Shown in pieces: positions 1 to 6,767 of a DNA stretch of 21,999 nt; position 1 is the stretch's first letter, and every line of letters starts with the position of its first letter. The stretch is from a virus. The stretch covers positions 1 to 21,999 of IMG/VR virus record IMGVR_UViG_3300021964_000620, one strand, 5' to 3'. Made by a program: the position numbers and the translations under genes. The notes under the pieces are model-generated. The model worked only from the letters and a program-made list of their open reading frames with translations, had not been told where the DNA came from and searched no databases.

Positions 1-236
1 TCTAAATTGTTTGTTTGGTCAGCAGTTAAAGAAAGTGTAATAACACCTGTTGTACGGTCATCGGCAATAGATGTTGAAATTGTTGTACGAGTACGAGTTG
101 AGGCATAGCCTCTTGCCATTTTAGCACTAGCAGTATAACCTGTTAAGTCAAATGCGTTTCCGTCATTGTCTTTTACAGTTACGTCTGTACTAAAGGTTGC
201 GCCTTGGTCAATTATTAGATTCGCTGTCGCTGCCAT
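1..236 (-). CDS. Fibre or baseplate-associated protein, N-terminal part (cut by window edge)
   Basis: The reading frame starts at the ATG at 236-234 and stays open to the window edge, giving 78 residues (MAATANLIIDQGATFSTDVT...). The pattern of an N-terminal strand, then DNDGNAFDLTGYTASAKMAR, then a segment ending TTGVITLSLTADQT resembles the beta-sandwich N-terminal domain of phage baseplate upper or receptor-binding protein subunits (BppU_N-like: D..G...DLTGYT...G.I.LSLT). That assignment rests on remembered pattern only. The start overlaps the end of the DUF6447 gene by 29 bases in another frame, and there is no convincing Shine-Dalgarno sequence, so translation may depend on coupling to that gene. 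It is the last gene of the unit driven by the late promoter at 466-473. A role in the virion is inferred from position and fold type. Confidence 0.75.
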   Translation of the reverse strand, partial: MAATANLIIDQGATFSTDVTVKDNDGNAFDLTGYTASAKMARGYASTRTRTTISTSIADDRTTGVITLSLTADQTNNL

Positions 237-432
237 CTGTTTTGTCTAATTCTTCTTTTATTTTTTTATTATAATAATCAGTCAAAACAGCAATCTTTTC
301 TAATTCAACTTCATGTCTAACTTTAGACTTTTGAATTTCTTGTCTTGCCACAATAATATTTTGCAAATAAGGTGATAATTTTTCTAATTCGTATTCTTTA
401 CCATCTATAGTTAATTTAGTCGTTTCACTCAT
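208..432 (-). CDS. DUF6447-like small protein
   Basis: This 74-residue protein opens with MSETTKLTIDGKEYELEKLS and continues as a long charged helix (about residues 20-62), ending in an acidic Ser/Asn tail (DGSDSESNN). The opening 'T-x-DGKEY-x-L-x-x-LS' followed by a Gln/Glu/Lys helix matches what I know of the DUF6447 family, which is common in marine T4-like phages and has no known function. The start is supported by AAAGGATG about ten bases upstream of the ATG and by an exact late-promoter box at 466-473. It overlaps the next gene by 29 bases. A coiled-coil or chaperone-like role for the neighbouring fibre protein is only a guess. Confidence 0.8.
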   Translation of the reverse strand: MSETTKLTIDGKEYELEKLSPYLQNIIVARQEIQKSKVRHEVELEKIAVLTDYYNKKIKEELDKTDGSDSESNN

Positions 433-465: not shown

Positions 466-473
466 TATTTATA
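466..473 (-). promoter_or_regulatory. T4-type late promoter box TATAAATA
   Basis: The minus strand reads TATAAATA exactly, the T4 late-promoter element recognised by the gp55/gp33 late sigma system. It lies 33 bases before the ATG of the DUF6447 gene, which gives room for a leader of about 25 nt that contains AAAGG. It would drive the DUF6447 gene and the partial fibre gene separately from the enzyme genes upstream. Confidence 0.8.
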
Positions 474-506: not shown

Positions 507-2030
507 CTATTTATTATAGATATTATTCTTTAAAAATTTATACAATGAGGGTAAATGTTGTATCATGTTATTCCAATCTTTTTTTCTCATATCCAATTTT
601 TTAATAGGATGTTGCCATTCTCTAGCTAATTCTTCTTTTGTTTTTTGTTGATATAAAGAAATAGTTTCATAGTCAGTAGGAGGCCAATTCATGCCAGCTG
701 CAATACAATGTAATCCATCGTTTTTTGGAAAGTGATAGTCGTCATCTTTATTAATAGCAGCGTCAACAAAGCCATTTGTTAGATTTCTTTTTAGATTAAT
801 TAAGTCATTTGACCATTCTTTATTAAAGTTATCTCTCCAATATTCTGTATCCGTTCTTTGTGACATAGCATAGTGCATGGCTACAAATTCAGCAAAATCT
901 CTAAAGAGTCTTTTACATTGATATGTGTAATTGTCTTTATCCCATTGAGATATTTTATCTCTATTTAATGTTCTAACTAATCTCATTAAAAATTCATGTA
1001 CAGTAAATAATCCGTTACTTTCTAAAGGTTCAATAAATCCAGCAGATAATCCTATAGCAGCCACATTTTTTACAAATAATCTATTGTGAATACCTACTCT
1101 CATTTTTAATTTTTTAAATTCTAAATTATCTCTACCCAAATGCTTTTTAAATTCATCTAGCGCTTCTTCATCACTAATATATTTGTCTGAATAAACATAT
1201 CCAGTACCAATTCTACTCCACAACGGAATATGCCAAACCCAACCATTACCTAATGCTGTGCAATTTGTAAAAGGTTGTAATTCCTCTTCTTTATTTTCAT
1301 AAGGTATTTTTGTGGCCCACGCTGAATTATTAGGTAACATATCTGAATAACTTTCAAAGGGTTCTTTTAAAGTTTTACCTAACAATAAAGATTTAAAACC
1401 TGTACAATCAATAAACAAATCAGCAGTGTGTTTATTATTTAAAGATTTAATTCCATTATTATCTTTTTCAATGCTAACAATATCTTCTTTGATATGTTTT
1501 ACACCCTTGGGTACACAATAATGGTCTCTTAACCAAAGACCAAATTTAGTAGCATCAAAATGATAAGCTGTATGTTTATCAAAATCAAAAGGTATAATTT
1601 GTGGTTTGTTATAATCAATTTTATTATTATTTACTAATGCCATTTGTGGAAAATGACAAGTTGCATAATCTGAATTATCTAATTTTGGATTTAAAAATTT
1701 CTTAAACCACCAATCATTTAGTTCTGCTTGATTACCTTGGGTAAAAGGTTTGCCAAATGGATAGTGAAAAGATGTTCCTTTTTTACCAAAGTCTGTAAAT
1801 TTAATACTTAATTTATAACTGCCGTCTGTGTGTTTTAAGAAATCTTTATCATCAATCTCTAAATATTTTGTCCAAAATTTAATACCGCCAATTGTACTTT
1901 CTCCTACACCCATAGTAGGTATGTTAGGACTTTCAATTAAGGTAATATCTTTATTTGGAAAAGTTTTTATTAAAGTAGCTGCTGTCATCCACCCAGCAGA
2001 TCCTCCACCAACTACAACTATTTTTTTCAT
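507..2030 (-). CDS. Flavin-dependent (tryptophan-type) halogenase, viral
   Basis: This 507-residue protein is a full-length FADH2-dependent halogenase of the tryptophan halogenase family. FAD-binding motif VVGGGSAGWMTA is at about 6-17 and VGESTI at 42-47. The halogenase signature WxWxIP appears as WVWHIP at 264-269. The catalytic lysine equivalent to PrnA K79 is K73 (GSYKLSIKF), and the glutamate equivalent to PrnA E346 is E337 (FIEPLESNG), so the active site looks intact. In this family FADH2 and O2 oxidise halide to hypohalous acid, which travels down a tunnel to the lysine. A cyanophage homologue, VirX1, is known to halogenate, preferring iodide, but its natural substrate is unknown. No flavin reductase is in the window, so reduced flavin would have to come from elsewhere. 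The gene starts two bases after the stop of the upstream dioxygenase and has no clear Shine-Dalgarno sequence, suggesting coupled translation. Specificity for free tryptophan is not established. Confidence 0.95.
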   Translation of the reverse strand: MKKIVVVGGGSAGWMTAATLIKTFPNKDITLIESPNIPTMGVGESTIGGIKFWTKYLEIDDKDFLKHTDGSYKLSIKFTDFGKKGTSFHYPFGKPFTQGNQAELNDWWFKKFLNPKLDNSDYATCHFPQMALVNNNKIDYNKPQIIPFDFDKHTAYHFDATKFGLWLRDHYCVPKGVKHIKEDIVSIEKDNNGIKSLNNKHTADLFIDCTGFKSLLLGKTLKEPFESYSDMLPNNSAWATKIPYENKEEELQPFTNCTALGNGWVWHIPLWSRIGTGYVYSDKYISDEEALDEFKKHLGRDNLEFKKLKMRVGIHNRLFVKNVAAIGLSAGFIEPLESNGLFTVHEFLMRLVRTLNRDKISQWDKDNYTYQCKRLFRDFAEFVAMHYAMSQRTDTEYWRDNFNKEWSNDLINLKRNLTNGFVDAAINKDDDYHFPKNDGLHCIAAGMNWPPTDYETISLYQQKTKEELAREWQHPIKKLDMRKKDWNNMIQHLPSLYKFLKNNIYNK

Positions 2031-2032
2031 AT

Positions 2033-2662
2033 CTAATTTTTATATTGTTTTATATTAAAGGATATTGATATTCTATTGTCATCTTTATCATCTGTGAGAT
2101 TTATATCCACATCATGTGCCAACCATGCAGGAAACATAATTAGTCTTCCTTCTAATGCGTCATAACCAATTTCACGGCATTGTTTTAAAGGTTTTTTATC
2201 TTTATCATAAACGGGTGCCATTCTTTCATTTTCTGTTCTTGGATCGTAAAAACAAATATTACCACTATTTTTAGGAACTTGAACATAGTAAACACCTGAA
2301 AAAAAACTGTTAGGATGTGTGTGACATTTATTATAACTGTATTTAGGATTTACATTTGCCCACATATTATCTATATCAATGTGATTAGAATTAAAATTAT
2401 ATCCTTCATTTTTAGCAATTGAATTTGCTACCTTTATTATTTCATCACATATAATTTTGTACTTAGGTCTTTTATTCATATCACCTGGACTGTGCCAACC
2501 ATTTTTATTTGACCTTACAATTCCTTTGTCTTTATCTTTCCATTCTAATATATTTTTTTTTAACTCTTTATTGATTTCTTTATAATTAGCCACATCTTTA
2601 AAATAGATATTTGTAGGCCACCATTGTTCACAAACTATTCTGTCTGTAATTTTTTGAGTCAT
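2033..2662 (-). CDS. 2OG-Fe(II) oxygenase, TIGR02466 type
   Basis: This 209-residue protein matches the small TIGR02466 / 2OG-FeII_Oxy_5 family of putative 2-oxoglutarate and Fe(II) dependent oxygenases. Family marks visible are CHTHPNSFFSGVYYVQVP (113-130), FYDPR (138-142), LIMFPAWLAHDV (174-185) and RISISFNI (197-204). Likely metal ligands are H114 or H116 and the distal H183, with R197 placed to bind 2-oxoglutarate. A classical HxD/E triad is not evident: the first motif is HxH, as I recall for this family. The substrate is unknown; related enzymes hydroxylate amino acids or protein side chains. Its stop is followed after two bases by the halogenase ATG, and its own ATG abuts the stop of the upstream dioxygenase (TAA-ATG), so the three enzymes are very probably co-translated. 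Confidence 0.9.
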   Translation of the reverse strand: MTQKITDRIVCEQWWPTNIYFKDVANYKEINKELKKNILEWKDKDKGIVRSNKNGWHSPGDMNKRPKYKIICDEIIKVANSIAKNEGYNFNSNHIDIDNMWANVNPKYSYNKCHTHPNSFFSGVYYVQVPKNSGNICFYDPRTENERMAPVYDKDKKPLKQCREIGYDALEGRLIMFPAWLAHDVDINLTDDKDDNRISISFNIKQYKN

Positions 2663-3304
2663 TTATTTAAAGGTAACCCCATGAACCCATCCTACTATAG
2701 CATCTCTAGTTCCTTTTGTAACTTTAGTAACTCTATGGGTTAAAAATGATGGATATATTATACAAGTTCCTTTTTTTCTAAAAGCTTCCGTATTTACTTT
2801 TGTTCCTAAAAATTCTAAATCACCACCTTCGTACTCTTTAGAATCAGTTAATTGAATTGTAAAACTTAATTTTCTATGCGATACAGAATTACCAATATCT
2901 AAATGCCAATCGTAATGTCCTCCCTTTTTATACCTCATAATTGATGGTGTGTCTTCTTCTAAAAATCCATAACAATTAAACTTATAATTAACATCATTTG
3001 CTTGTTTAGCAAATTTAATTACTTGCATTAAAGGCCAACCTTCTTTATTCATTGGTACAGGTTGAACCTCAACCTTTCTCATATTATTTTTAATATTATT
3101 TCCTTCTACTTTTCCAGGTAACCATAATTCATCAAGTAATTGACCTGTGATAGCATCACACTCTTTCTCTGAAAAAAGTTGTCCATGTAAAATAGAGCAA
3201 AATTTATTATTTAAATTTATTTTTGTTGGCAATTCGTTAGTAATATCTTTACTTTCAATAGATTGATTTTCTTCAAATTCTATCTTATATTCACTATTTG
3301 ACAT
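2663..3304 (-). CDS. 2OG-Fe(II) dioxygenase, prolyl 4-hydroxylase / PKHD-like
   Basis: This 213-residue protein carries the complete facial triad of a prolyl-hydroxylase-like 2OG-Fe(II) dioxygenase: H134-x-D136 in HYDWHLDIG, distal H190 in YPSFLTHRV, and R200 ten residues later in KGTRDAIVGWVHG to bind 2-oxoglutarate. EGGDLEF at 159-165 is the usual strand between them. These features place it near the 2OG-FeII_Oxy_3 / PKHD-type hydroxylases. Known relatives hydroxylate proline or other residues, and some phage members are proposed to modify proteins, but the substrate here cannot be read from sequence. Start choice is supported by AGGAGA seven bases before the ATG, the strongest ribosome site in the enzyme group. 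It is the first of three tightly packed enzyme genes. Confidence 0.93.
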   Translation of the reverse strand: MSNSEYKIEFEENQSIESKDITNELPTKINLNNKFCSILHGQLFSEKECDAITGQLLDELWLPGKVEGNNIKNNMRKVEVQPVPMNKEGWPLMQVIKFAKQANDVNYKFNCYGFLEEDTPSIMRYKKGGHYDWHLDIGNSVSHRKLSFTIQLTDSKEYEGGDLEFLGTKVNTEAFRKKGTCIIYPSFLTHRVTKVTKGTRDAIVGWVHGVTFK

Positions 3305-3314
3305 ATTTTATCTC

Positions 3315-3404
3315 CTAATTTTTATATAGACCAGGTGTTGTAAAAGTTTTGTTTTTTACATTTATAGATTTTTTATTTGTGATGAATTTTAAAACTTTTT
3401 TCAT
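3315..3404 (-). CDS. Possible 29-residue protein before the enzyme genes
   Basis: The gap between the dioxygenase and the Trp-rich protein holds an open frame of 29 codons (MKKVLKFITNKKSINVKNKT then FTTPGLYKN). Its TAG stop is embedded in the TTAGGAGA ribosome site of the downstream dioxygenase, an arrangement seen at other junctions here (for example 13632). Against it, no Shine-Dalgarno sequence precedes its ATG, and it is short and Lys/Asn-rich as random AT-rich sequence would be. It resembles no family I know. Confidence 0.35.
   Translation of the reverse strand: MKKVLKFITNKKSINVKNKTFTTPGLYKN
3359..3366 (-). promoter_or_regulatory. Weak candidate late promoter, TATAAATG
   Basis: The minus strand reads TATAAATG, one base from the late box TATAAATA, 55 bases before the dioxygenase ATG and within the gap of 132 bases upstream of the enzyme genes. 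It could give the enzymes a promoter of their own, but it also lies inside the possible 29-codon frame and differs from the exact boxes elsewhere. Confidence 0.3.
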
Positions 3405-3436: not shown

Positions 3437-4171
3437 CTAAAATTCTATACCTGGTGTCTTTTTATTATTCATACTTGCGTCAACTCTTAATCTTTCATGC
3501 TCTGCATTTGGTCCTATTGCTGTAGATCCTTTACCTGGTCTAAATTTATCTTTTGAGTTCATTCCTCTACCAAAATTATTAGTCATCTTTAATACTTGTT
3601 GCCAAATTATTGACTCACGTTTTCGTTTGTGTGCGTCTGACCTTAATCTTTCTTCATCTGTTGGCATTCTATTTAGTGGTTTTTTATTAGGATTCATATG
3701 TAACATTACATTACCAGAATCAGCTGCTCGCAACCATTGTTTCATTCTCATTGATTTATTAGGTTTATATTCTTGTATCCATTGACCAGTAATAGGATGT
3801 TGTTTTAAATTACCTGATCCCATAGGTTTTTTGGGTCTTTTCATCCACCATCTAAACCAATACATACCCAATTCATCCATTTTTCTAAAAAATGCCTTTG
3901 GATTTTCTTTAAATAAATGAAAGTCTTTTATTTCTTTCTCTTTCATCTCGTTTTGAATTATTCTTTTTTCCCAATTTCTTTCTCTAGCTTCTATATCTAA
4001 AGCAAAATCGTGTTCATATTGTTGAAGCTGCGCTAAAGTAATTTCACCTTTAGCATATTTTTTCTTCATATCTGCATGACCATGCCGATTTGATTGCCAA
4101 TGACCCCATGTTGAGGGCATTAGATATTTTCCAGAAAAGTTTTTGAGAGAATCTTTAAAATTAAAACCCAT
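3437..4171 (-). CDS. Basic, tryptophan-rich protein of unknown function
   Basis: I do not recognise this 244-residue protein. It is strongly basic (49 Lys+Arg against about 28 Asp+Glu by my count) and unusually rich in tryptophan: nine, at 22, 25, 67, 105, 108, 109, 131, 146 and 190, including the cluster MYWFRWWMKRPKKP. A helical, charged stretch spans about 48-100. The C-terminal part is rich in Asn, Met, Lys and Gly and contains a short repeat, ERLR-x-DA, at 174-180 and 226-232. No signal peptide or membrane segment is seen. AGGTGA eight bases before the ATG supports the start. It lies between the glycine-rich fibre genes and the enzyme operon, in the same direction, so it is probably a late protein, either a minor virion component or an assembly factor. 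Its position makes it a candidate partner or substrate of the enzymes, which is inference only. Confidence 0.8.
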   Translation of the reverse strand: MGFNFKDSLKNFSGKYLMPSTWGHWQSNRHGHADMKKKYAKGEITLAQLQQYEHDFALDIEARERNWEKRIIQNEMKEKEIKDFHLFKENPKAFFRKMDELGMYWFRWWMKRPKKPMGSGNLKQHPITGQWIQEYKPNKSMRMKQWLRAADSGNVMLHMNPNKKPLNRMPTDEERLRSDAHKRKRESIIWQQVLKMTNNFGRGMNSKDKFRPGKGSTAIGPNAEHERLRVDASMNNKKTPGIEF

Positions 4172-4417: not shown

Positions 4418-6013
4418 TTAACTCCACTGTAGAGCAACACCATGTACTTTAACAGTATTATTTGCCAAAGCAATTTTATATTTCATACTAGTACCACTTG
4501 GTTGACCAGAAACATCAACAGTTCCAGTTAAAATTCTTTGTCCACTAGATCCTACTACATATCCTACGTCTGACATTGTAGCCGCTGTAAATGTAGTACC
4601 ATTATCTCTACTTACTGATACAATAATATCTGTGTTTAAAGTTGGTGTATCTACATCTTCTTCAAAAACAACTACTCTAGCACTTGAAGGTGCTGTTGAA
4701 GCAGTAAATGCGTCTGATTGAATTGTTGTTGACCTTGTTGACGCAGTAGCACCAGCAAATGTAAGTAATACATATCCGTCTTCTCCACTACTAGGACCTT
4801 GTCCAGGACCAGGAGGAGAACCTTCGTTAGTTCCAGCAACATTGTCTGGATCTGTAGCACCAGCACCTTGCGTTGATGAACCTTGTTCATTTGTAGCAGA
4901 TGATACTTCAGGATTTCCTATATATCCAGAACCTCCACCACCAGTTGCCCTTTGATTTGAGTCTCCAGTAGAACCACCGCCGCCATAATAACCAGAACCT
5001 CCAGCGCCGCCTGTATTACCATCGCCACCAAATAAGAATCCACCAGCTTGAGCACCAGTACCTCCAGCAGTTTGAGAACCACCTTCTCCTTGACCATCTT
5101 GTCCAGTATTACCGCCGCCAGCACCACCAGCAGTATTACTACTAGGATTTGAAGCGCCACCGCCTCCACCACCAGCAATCATAAAGTAATTGGGAGCATT
5201 CCCAGGTAATATCGATTGTGATGCTCCAGGAGCAGCCGCAGTTGCAATGGCAGATAATCCACCACCTTTCCCACCAGCAGGTGCTTGTCCTGCACCATCT
5301 GTGCCACCTCTATTTGGGTTATTTCCCCATCCAGAAGCTTGTTCTGGTTGTGGTGGGTTATCTCCAGCGGGACCACCACCTTCTCCAACATATATTGCGA
5401 ATGACTCACCAGGAGTTGTAGAAATTATTCCATCAGCAAATCCTCCTCCACCACCACCACCTAAACCAGCAGTGTTGTGGTGACCTCCTCTGGAAGCACC
5501 AGCACCCCAAACTTTAGCAGTTAAACTAGAAACATTATCTGGTGTAATAAAATTTCCAGAACCAAGTGTACCTAAAGTACCATTTGTGTGTGTTACGGAA
5601 GTATCTGGTTCAGTTATAGTAGTTGTAGAAAATCCAGCTGAAAGAGCTGCAACCGGTACGCCAGCGGGAGAGTCATCATTAACTATGTAATCTGATAAAC
5701 CTGGTGCAGCAGCAACAGGATTCATATTGGATGAACCAACTGGATCAAGTCCAGTTATATCTCTAAATTCATCAACGATACCGTCCTGTAAATTAAAAAC
5801 TGTTAGTCCTTCATTAACGGCAATTTTAAATCCTAAAAGACCTACGTTGTCTTTTACAGGATTAATTGTTGCGTCTGTGGCAACACCACTTAATTTTGTA
5901 CCAGCAATTGCAGCTGATGGACTTACATCAGCATCTGTAATCGTACTATTTTCGATTTCTGTAGATGAAATTGTTCCTGATGTTATATTTTCTTTTGTAA
6001 TTTTTGTTGTCAT
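4418..6013 (-). CDS. Glycine-rich tail fibre / adhesin-like protein
   Basis: This 531-residue protein has three parts. Residues 1-110 are a fibre-like N-terminus (MTTKITKENITSGTISSTEI...; SPSAAIAGTKLSG) typical of phage tail-fibre attachment or shaft regions. Residues about 164-418 form a glycine-rich domain beginning AKVWGAGA, with runs such as LGGGGGGGFADG (184-195) and MIAGGGGGGAS (278-288), and ending EDGYVLLTF, the layout of Gly_rich domains known from phage fibres; polyglycine-II packing of the kind seen in T-even adhesins is plausible. Residues 440-531 are a compact C-terminal beta domain (VVVFEEDVDT...NTDIIVSVSRDNG...SGQPSGTSMKYKI...HGVALQWS) that I associate with marine phage fibre proteins. 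The Shine-Dalgarno GGGAGA precedes the ATG. It probably contacts the host surface. The codons of the glycine tract are GGT/GGA-rich, making this the most GC-rich part of the window. Confidence 0.85.
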   Translation of the reverse strand: MTTKITKENITSGTISSTEIENSTITDADVSPSAAIAGTKLSGVATDATINPVKDNVGLLGFKIAVNEGLTVFNLQDGIVDEFRDITGLDPVGSSNMNPVAAAPGLSDYIVNDDSPAGVPVAALSAGFSTTTITEPDTSVTHTNGTLGTLGSGNFITPDNVSSLTAKVWGAGASRGGHHNTAGLGGGGGGGFADGIISTTPGESFAIYVGEGGGPAGDNPPQPEQASGWGNNPNRGGTDGAGQAPAGGKGGGLSAIATAAAPGASQSILPGNAPNYFMIAGGGGGGASNPSSNTAGGAGGGNTGQDGQGEGGSQTAGGTGAQAGGFLFGGDGNTGGAGGSGYYGGGGSTGDSNQRATGGGGSGYIGNPEVSSATNEQGSSTQGAGATDPDNVAGTNEGSPPGPGQGPSSGEDGYVLLTFAGATASTRSTTIQSDAFTASTAPSSARVVVFEEDVDTPTLNTDIIVSVSRDNGTTFTAATMSDVGYVVGSSGQRILTGTVDVSGQPSGTSMKYKIALANNTVKVHGVALQWS

Positions 6014-6690: not shown

Positions 6691-6717
6691 TTTTGTTTTT
6701 CCTTATTACTATTTATA
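6686..6717 (-). repeat. Late promoter-leader block, copy 2
   Basis: From the TATAAATA box to the ATGGC start these 32 bases match the block at 15139-15170 at 28 positions: box, two variable bases, AATAAGGAA, a variable A-rich spacer, then AAAATGGC. The spacing is the same. This is the same expression signal used before two different virion genes. Confidence 0.75.
6710..6717 (-). promoter_or_regulatory. T4-type late promoter box TATAAATA (proximal)
   Basis: An exact TATAAATA on the minus strand, 20 bases before the ATG of the 123-residue structural gene, with AAGGAAA lying just after the expected start of transcription. It probably drives the fibre unit leftward from 6690, perhaps through to the enzymes. 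Confidence 0.8.
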
Positions 6718-6759: not shown

Positions 6760-6767
6760 TATTTATA
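6760..6767 (-). promoter_or_regulatory. T4-type late promoter box TATAAATA (distal)
   Basis: A second exact box in the same 84-base gap, starting eight bases after the stop codon of the 182-residue fibre gene. A transcript from here would have a leader of roughly 60 nt including the inverted repeat at 6717-6756. The sequence joining the preceding stop codon to this box resembles the one at 15163-15176. Confidence 0.75.

Follow-up and report, generated by a model that had tools for sequence, protein, structure and literature searches.

A 21,999-base stretch of viral DNA (IMG/VR record IMGVR_UViG_3300021964_000620, 32.5% G+C; hereafter the window) carries, at positions 507-3304 of the minus strand, a cassette of three intact, abutting enzyme genes: one for a VirX1-like flavin-dependent halogenase and two for 2-oxoglutarate- and Fe(II)-dependent (2OG) oxygenases. 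The cassette lies in the host recognition cluster of a pelagimyophage-like genome, and its oxygenases belong to the families of a 2OG module that recurs beside fibre genes in hundreds of marine phage contigs and is present as a whole in the isolate HTVC023P. The basic unit is this 2OG module beside a pair of fibre genes and not the trio of enzymes, the halogenase being an optional insert. In our best explanation, to which we give an even chance, the cassette is the local version of the widespread module and serves the late post-translational modification of the phage's own adhesin or of its companion protein.

The module was found by searching with phrog_7759, queried as single proteins, and with the oxygenase family c4; the c4 scan gave at least 600 matching stretches, 598 of those listed were confirmed, and the gene surroundings of the 80 best were examined. 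Its recurrent order is a glycine (Gly)-rich gene, phrog_7759, the oxygenase families Oxy3_c2 (that of the window protein P0003), Oxy5_c0 (that of P0002) and c4, and a conserved tail gene. Complete islands, lying between the Gly-rich fibre gene with phrog_7759 and the conserved tail gene, were recognized in 151 contigs (131 distinct); this set was assembled by queries with the halogenase, phrog_7759 and c4, and its proportions hold for the set, not for all phages. The halogenase exists in 28 of the 131 distinct islands, and 103 are without it. The PiuC-like Oxy3_c2 is found in all 28 islands with the halogenase versus 83 of the 103 without (Fisher P = 0.007, uncorrected for relatedness), and sulfotransferases are also commoner with it (6/28 versus 3/103). 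Presence or absence of the halogenase switches 12 times along the Oxy3_c2 tree, with good branch support for at least eight of the switches. Nol-like carbamoyltransferase or sulfotransferase genes are inserted in the oxygenase islands of several loci (numbered L019, L021, L022, L028, L081, L203 and L244; L071, L089 and L162). In HTVC023P-type pelagiphages (gp59-gp72), Gly-rich genes, phrog_7759 and the PiuC-like, PF13759 and c4 oxygenases stand beside tail genes; in comparison with the window, the stretch read contains no halogenase, c4 and c16 are present, and P0003 is 30% identical to gp65. This group is reported in PMC12753301 as the most abundant known pelagiphage type.

A sequence-only reading of the window had described three abutting enzyme genes behind one ribosome site, on the strand and within the region of the tail genes, and had listed the conserved catalytic residues of the halogenase and the first oxygenase. 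All of this was borne out. The TAA stop of P0003 abuts the ATG of P0002, the TAG stop of P0002 is followed by two bases ("at") and then by the halogenase ATG, one clear Shine-Dalgarno sequence stands 7 nt ahead of the first ATG, and tail genes occupy both flanks, all on the minus strand. The same reading had suggested that the three enzymes act on one target, perhaps a virion protein, by hydroxylation and then halogenation. The part concerning a tail-linked modification is strengthened by the linkage and co-divergence described below, but a fixed three-enzyme pathway is unsupported, because the identity of P0002 and P0003 to the usual partners is no more than about 30-40%. Their closest relatives are 36% and 40% identical, respectively (76% for the halogenase), and the oxygenase tree calls for at least 8-12 gains or losses of the halogenase. 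For want of close relatives of P0002 and P0003, a conserved orthologous trio was rejected.

The pairing of phage halogenases with oxygenases near tail genes, put forward earlier as a check, was supported. A scan of IMG/VR with the halogenase gave 136 relatives, of which 80 (59-76% identical) were kept, making 81 loci with the window. In 75 of the 81, the halogenase has a 2OG oxygenase no more than three genes away, with mostly overlaps of 4-32 bases or abutments between the halogenase and its neighbour, and tail or structural genes were recognized by our own models on the same contig in 70. The six loci without a nearby oxygenase are L025 and five of one type, in which the halogenase stands between a late-sigma-like gene and gp47; L044, of the same type, has oxygenases nearby. 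Among isolates, VirX1-like halogenases occur near tail-fibre and 2OG genes in Syn9, S-RIM44, S-CREM1, S-WAM1, P-RSM6, Sf-FR1, S-SZBM1 and Sf-CH11, most of which encode proteins annotated as tail-fibre assembly or collagen-like just upstream (22-30% Gly in those translated). Small proteins with 3-4% tryptophan (Trp) directly precede the halogenase genes in Syn9 (gp40), S-CREM1 (S-CREM1_68) and S-WAM1 (gp211). The remoter halogenases (about 30-35%) of P-SSM2, S-MbCM6 and HTVC008M are located elsewhere. Tandem halogenase pairs exist in Syn9 (gp41-gp42), S-RIM44, P-RSM6, L051 and L060, suggesting two target sites or two substrates. A bacterial origin of the halogenase was rejected: the sole match in a bacterial genome (NZMJ01000017.1, L330, labelled as a Maricaulis metagenome-assembled genome) lies in a complete phage island with halogenase; genes of such an island fill the whole contig, which apparently comes from a phage and was binned wrongly.

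The enzymes diverge together with the fibre genes. When the tail gene is controlled for, halogenase distances correlate with those of the Gly-rich gene (partial Mantel r = 0.66, p = 0.002, n = 15) and of phrog_7759 (0.57, n = 18), whereas the correlation of the halogenase with the tail gene, which belongs to the backbone, is -0.08 given the Gly-rich gene and 0.18 given phrog_7759. The three module oxygenases track the fibre likewise, including c4, which often adjoins the tail gene (0.39 for phrog_7759 versus 0.11 for the tail gene). Backbone genes flanking the islands correlate strongly with each other (r = 0.92) but only at 0.11 with phrog_7759 and 0.20 with Oxy3_c2, so that the fibre, its companion and the enzymes travel together as one unit relative to the backbone. 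The module is inverted as a whole in nine complete islands and in part in six; all of these stay beside fibre genes, so shared transcription is not the sole reason for the linkage. Functional coupling would explain the co-divergence, and mere exchange of the block would do so too; the inversions and the order-independent association favour coupling. If, on the contrary, the enzymes were passengers in a hypervariable hot spot that takes any cargo tolerated late, the association with fibres would mark just the place of recombination. Such an origin fits the very diverse content of the slot, the many gains or losses of the halogenase and the recombination of the block apart from the backbone. However, the same oxygenase families stand in order beside the same pair of fibre genes in most of the c4-bearing loci sampled, and the catalytic residues are invariant, so that we regard it as improbable.

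The halogenase P0001 belongs to the flavin-dependent tryptophan-halogenase superfamily. The PF04820 match covers residues 3-455, and GGGSAG at 8-13 (GxGxxG), K73, WVWHIP from 264 (WxWxIP) and E337 within EPLES are all present, K73 and E337 being kept in 90 of 90 relatives. The closest solved structure is that of VirX1 from cyanophage Syn10 (PDB 6qgm, E-value = 3.2e-105), in which the GxGxxG, Lys, WxWxIP and Glu elements are conserved as well. VirX1 has 531 residues compared with 507 in P0001, which comes from another phage group (the pelagimyophages); in Syn9, a sister phage of Syn10, the halogenase genes stand beside Gly-rich fibre genes and 2OG oxygenases, as in the window. The C-terminal motif YYHG ([YHF]YHG) from the list for free-tryptophan halogenases (PMC8269204) was found in none of the 90 halogenase sequences, which separates them from the group A/B enzymes PrnA, RebH and PyrH. 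VirX1 groups with enzymes that do not act on free Trp, including MibH, whose substrate is a Trp inside a peptide (PMC8269204). P0001 is in the same branch of the superfamily as MibH and other group C halogenases acting on peptides or indoles, likewise without the free-tryptophan motif; MibH, however, is part of a lantibiotic cluster, and no precursor peptide was found in the window. The absence of the motif and the grouping of VirX1 with MibH, together with the oxygenase profiles described below, thus make a protein side chain a plausible target.

Two of the rival explanations place the target in metabolism or in a small product. The enzymes have been proposed as auxiliary metabolic genes (PMC2984593, PMC9964418, PMC3037559), the halogenase chlorinating free Trp for a pyrrolnitrin-like protection against antibiotics and the oxygenases modulating host 2-oxoglutarate, nitrogen status or DNA repair. 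This seems very improbable here, since the free-Trp motif is missing in all 90 sequences, free Trp is not a substrate of group C halogenases, MibH and BrvH among them (PMC8269204), no other pyrrolnitrin gene was recognized in the window, and the genes are located among tail genes and linked to fibre genes. Alternatively, the cassette may make or tailor a small molecule, glycan or peptide, such as a halogenated metabolite, with all three products as tailoring enzymes. A halogenase with 2OG oxygenases is typical of such chemistry, VirX1 accepts many small aromatics in vitro (PMC8407142), and the same slot in Pelagibacter phage Mosig EXVC030M (54.7-71.8 kb) holds a 23-gene island on both strands, with enzymes unrelated to the cassette: Asp/Arg-hydroxylase-like and TauD-like proteins, carbamoyl-, amino- and acetyltransferases, MoaA-like and radical-SAM-type proteins, nitroreductases and a flavin mononucleotide reductase. 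Nevertheless, no scaffold-building gene or precursor peptide was recognized in the window, the core members of the module resemble protein hydroxylases, and linkage and co-divergence with the fibre would be left unexplained; we consider this explanation unlikely.

The profiles of the module oxygenases point to protein hydroxylases. In P0003, H134, D136 and H190 of the HxD...H iron triad and the 2OG-binding R200 are invariant in 22 relatives. The protein resembles PRK05467 (PKHD-type YbiX/PiuC; E-value = 1.7e-22), but its 80 bits lie under the NCBI curated cut-off of 143, which leaves it outside the equivalog. The Oxy3_c2 profile matches structures of PKHD/PiuC proteins (3e-17), prolyl 4-hydroxylases (P4H; about 1e-8) and EGLN1, and PiuC/YbiX and P4H enzymes share with the family the HxD...H motif and the Arg in addition to the profile similarity. 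H114, H116 and H183 of P0002 are invariant across its relatives, so that its iron motif is HxH...H, not HxD. P0002 is a member of TIGR02466/PF13759 (136.9 bits against a TIGR02466 cut-off of 62.5) and fits Oxy5_c0 with an E-value of 4.8e-55, by a model built including P0002 itself. The third family, c4, is annotated as ferrochelatase and folds as a 2OG oxygenase, the nearest structure being a Pseudomonas putida prolyl hydroxylase solved with EF-Tu. DNA modification by c4 was rejected, as its Tet-like match reached only an E-value of about 0.3 and the fold is nearer to protein prolyl hydroxylases. The c4 family carries HxD...H and the Arg, and the names of several PHROG families are probably wrong: phrog_2954 and phrog_3531 ("ferrochelatase") and phrog_2297 and phrog_274 ("DNA endonuclease V"), for example L014:3697-4317 and Syn9 gp51 and gp54. 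The "DNA endonuclease V" families overlap 2OG families by profile.

The companion phrog_7759 is a widespread marine phage protein, encoded beside Gly-rich fibre genes and containing invariant Trp residues (for example, L080:2873-3265). Its fold was modelled confidently (predicted local distance difference test, pLDDT, 96), with no match in PDB. In one c4 lineage (L050, L052, L053, L055, L056, L058 and L059) its C-terminal W-motif (WWDExxQSW) is fused to the oxygenase, and outside phrog_7759 and that lineage the motif was found in no other protein family at that place. On this ground phrog_7759 is a candidate substrate. As an obligate substrate it was rejected, because it is present with empty islands, is missing from the window and contains nearly as many Trp residues whether or not the halogenase is there. 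The nearest candidate substrates in the window are P0006 and P0004. The latter stands between the Gly-rich gene and the cassette, and no relatives of it were matched in families, the phage collection or IMG/VR.

Based on PHROG matches, the window contains a T4-type baseplate region with gp25-like, gp6-like and gp8 proteins and a VrlC-like protein of 2024 residues. The identity of gp8 (68%) and VrlC (65.6%) to those of Mosig EXVC030M marks it as a pelagimyophage-like fragment. At the upstream border, the VrlC gene and a 73-residue gene match Mosig_00100 and Mosig_00099. In pelagimyophages and cyanomyophages the host recognition cluster, a form of metaviromic island (PMC3909814), lies between VrlC and gp14 (PMC7029224). 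The cassette is in this hypervariable slot: it is downstream of VrlC, in the structural region and with tail fibres, the gp14 side being outside the window. In L061 and L081, whose downstream genes are common with the window, the slot holds a Gly-rich gene, phrog_7759, oxygenases and a halogenase. Fe(II)-dependent oxygenases were already listed among host-recognition genes in 2014 (PMC3909814), whereas the accessible text of these two papers mentions neither halogenases nor a recurring oxygenase module or virion modification. When cyanophage S-TIM4 adapts to sub-optimal hosts, mutations arise in tail-fibre and baseplate genes and in a few non-particle genes, one of which is the 2OG gene ORF23 (PMC6224464).

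The location raises the further explanation that the enzymes modify surface or envelope proteins or glycans of the infected host, altering the adhesin's receptor and leading to superinfection exclusion. Lipopolysaccharide glycosyltransferases, for which a role in changing the surface of the host has been proposed, abound in the pelagimyophage cluster (PMC7029224), sulfotransferase or carbamoyltransferase genes are added in some islands, and co-divergence of enzymes and adhesin is predicted here too. However, enzymes of the PiuC/P4H-like and VirX1-like families would be expected to work in the cytoplasm and to require a protein or a free aromatic compound as substrate; a module placed among the late tail genes comes late for excluding superinfection, and the scanned proteins of the window include no recognized glycosyltransferase. 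The chance that this explanation holds seems to us small.

Late expression of the cassette is likely, by read-through. The exact T4-type late promoter TATAAATA occurs seven times in the window, always on the coding (minus) strand, and six times between genes compared with 0.55 expected from a dinucleotide model (Poisson P = 2e-5), which is good evidence that T4-type late promoters are used in this region. The cassette has no exact copy just ahead of it; the closest ones on its upstream side are at 6710 and 6760. The weak candidate TATAAATG has one mismatch, and such matches were no commoner than chance. The accessible text on the HTVC027P transcriptome gives no expression class for the oxygenase gp73.

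Table 1. Genes and signals in and around the enzyme cassette of the window
Feature	Position	Strand	Basis or remark
VrlC-like giant baseplate protein, 2024 residues	7546..13620	-	phrog_358; 65.6% to Mosig_00100 VrlC; upstream border of host recognition cluster
Small tail-fibre/structural genes P0007, P0008, P0009	6028..7323	-	P0007 and P0009, tail-fibre PHROGs; P0008, island family c14, E-value 1.1e-8
Late promoter TATAAATA, ahead of the tail genes on the upstream side of the cassette	6710..6717 (another 6760-6767)	-	exact match
Gly-rich fibre/adhesin-like P0006, 531 residues, 20% Gly	4418..6013	-	PF12810 Gly-rich domain, E-value 1.9e-8; phrog_1589
Small protein P0005, 64 residues	4217..4411	-	no family match
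Orphan Trp-rich protein P0004, 244 residues, 3.7% Trp	3437..4171	-	composition; occupies the position that a Trp-rich companion gene has in other islands
Weak cassette promoter candidate TATAAATG, one mismatch to T4 late promoter	3359..3366	-	sequence match
Shine-Dalgarno sequence AGGAG	3316-3312	-	read from sequence
2OG-Fe(II) oxygenase P0003, 213 residues, PiuC/PKHD- and prolyl-hydroxylase-like	2663..3304	-	PF13640 2OG-FeII_Oxy_3, E-value 1.6e-15
2OG-Fe(II) oxygenase P0002, 209 residues, PF13759/TIGR02466 type	2033..2662	-	PF13759, E-value 4e-25; TIGR02466, E-value 7.7e-40
VirX1-like flavin-dependent halogenase P0001, 507 residues	507..2030	-	PF04820, E-value 7.6e-110; phrog_2928, E-value 5.1e-150
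Late promoter TATAAATA, just downstream of the cassette, ahead of the tail gene 208-432	466..473	-	exact match
Tail-region gene downstream of the cassette	208..432	-	65.5% identical to Mosig_00071; also closes the islands of L061 and L081
Tail-fibre-annotated gene, start only, cut by contig end	3..236	-	68% to Mosig_00070

According to the explanation that we prefer, modification of the phage's own adhesin or companion, the late transcript of the tail genes would also give rise to the cassette enzymes. Of these, the PiuC/prolyl-hydroxylase-like and PF13759 oxygenases would hydroxylate side chains of the newly made Gly-rich fibre or adhesin or of the small Trp-rich companion, and the VirX1-like halogenase would halogenate an exposed aromatic side chain (Trp or tyrosine) of the same proteins before assembly, whereby the adhesive tip may be diversified or tuned.

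Several observations weigh against this explanation. The two families that define the module beside the fibre, phrog_7759 and c4, were not found in the 22-kb window, which is an incomplete genome (members of Oxy3_c2 and Oxy5_c0 are present), and P0006 is not matched by the model of the Gly-rich gene of other islands. Thirteen complete islands contain fibre and phrog_7759 without a recognized oxygenase; these and the modules without halogenase indicate that the fibre can do without the enzymes. Six loci of one lineage and cyanophage S-B64 have their halogenase in the gp46/47 DNA-metabolism region, and the number of Trp residues per phrog_7759 protein is 7.0 with the halogenase versus 6.2 without. 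The co-divergence could mirror exchange of the region as one block. Finally, the virion proteomes of S-CREM1 and S-SZBM1 report no such modifications in their accessible text, nor do they mention searching for them (PMC9964418, PMC9146016).

In the available literature, auxiliary metabolism is the role given to phage halogenases and to most 2OG oxygenases of phages (antibiotic protection, nitrogen sensing, DNA repair), and a literature search made mostly without subscription papers found none that ties phage halogenases to virion proteins. Linkage and co-divergence place the VirX1-like halogenases and the common oxygenase module instead within the system by which very abundant ocean phages recognize their hosts. 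A tentative and more general proposal, which we hold as possible though short of probable, is that marine phages hydroxylate and halogenate their own receptor-binding proteins by means of the 2OG module, which many pelagiphages carry, those of the HTVC023P type among them, and to which a VirX1-type halogenase may be added, and so chemically diversify the adhesive tip of the virion. The question of the natural substrate of VirX1 thereby becomes testable on virions of existing isolates (Syn9, S-RIM44 and S-CREM1). If the proposal is true, modification of the virion tip would be the natural role of VirX1 and would provide, to our knowledge, the first halogenated virion protein; side-chain chemistry would then be a second route, besides sequence change, by which phages vary their adhesins.

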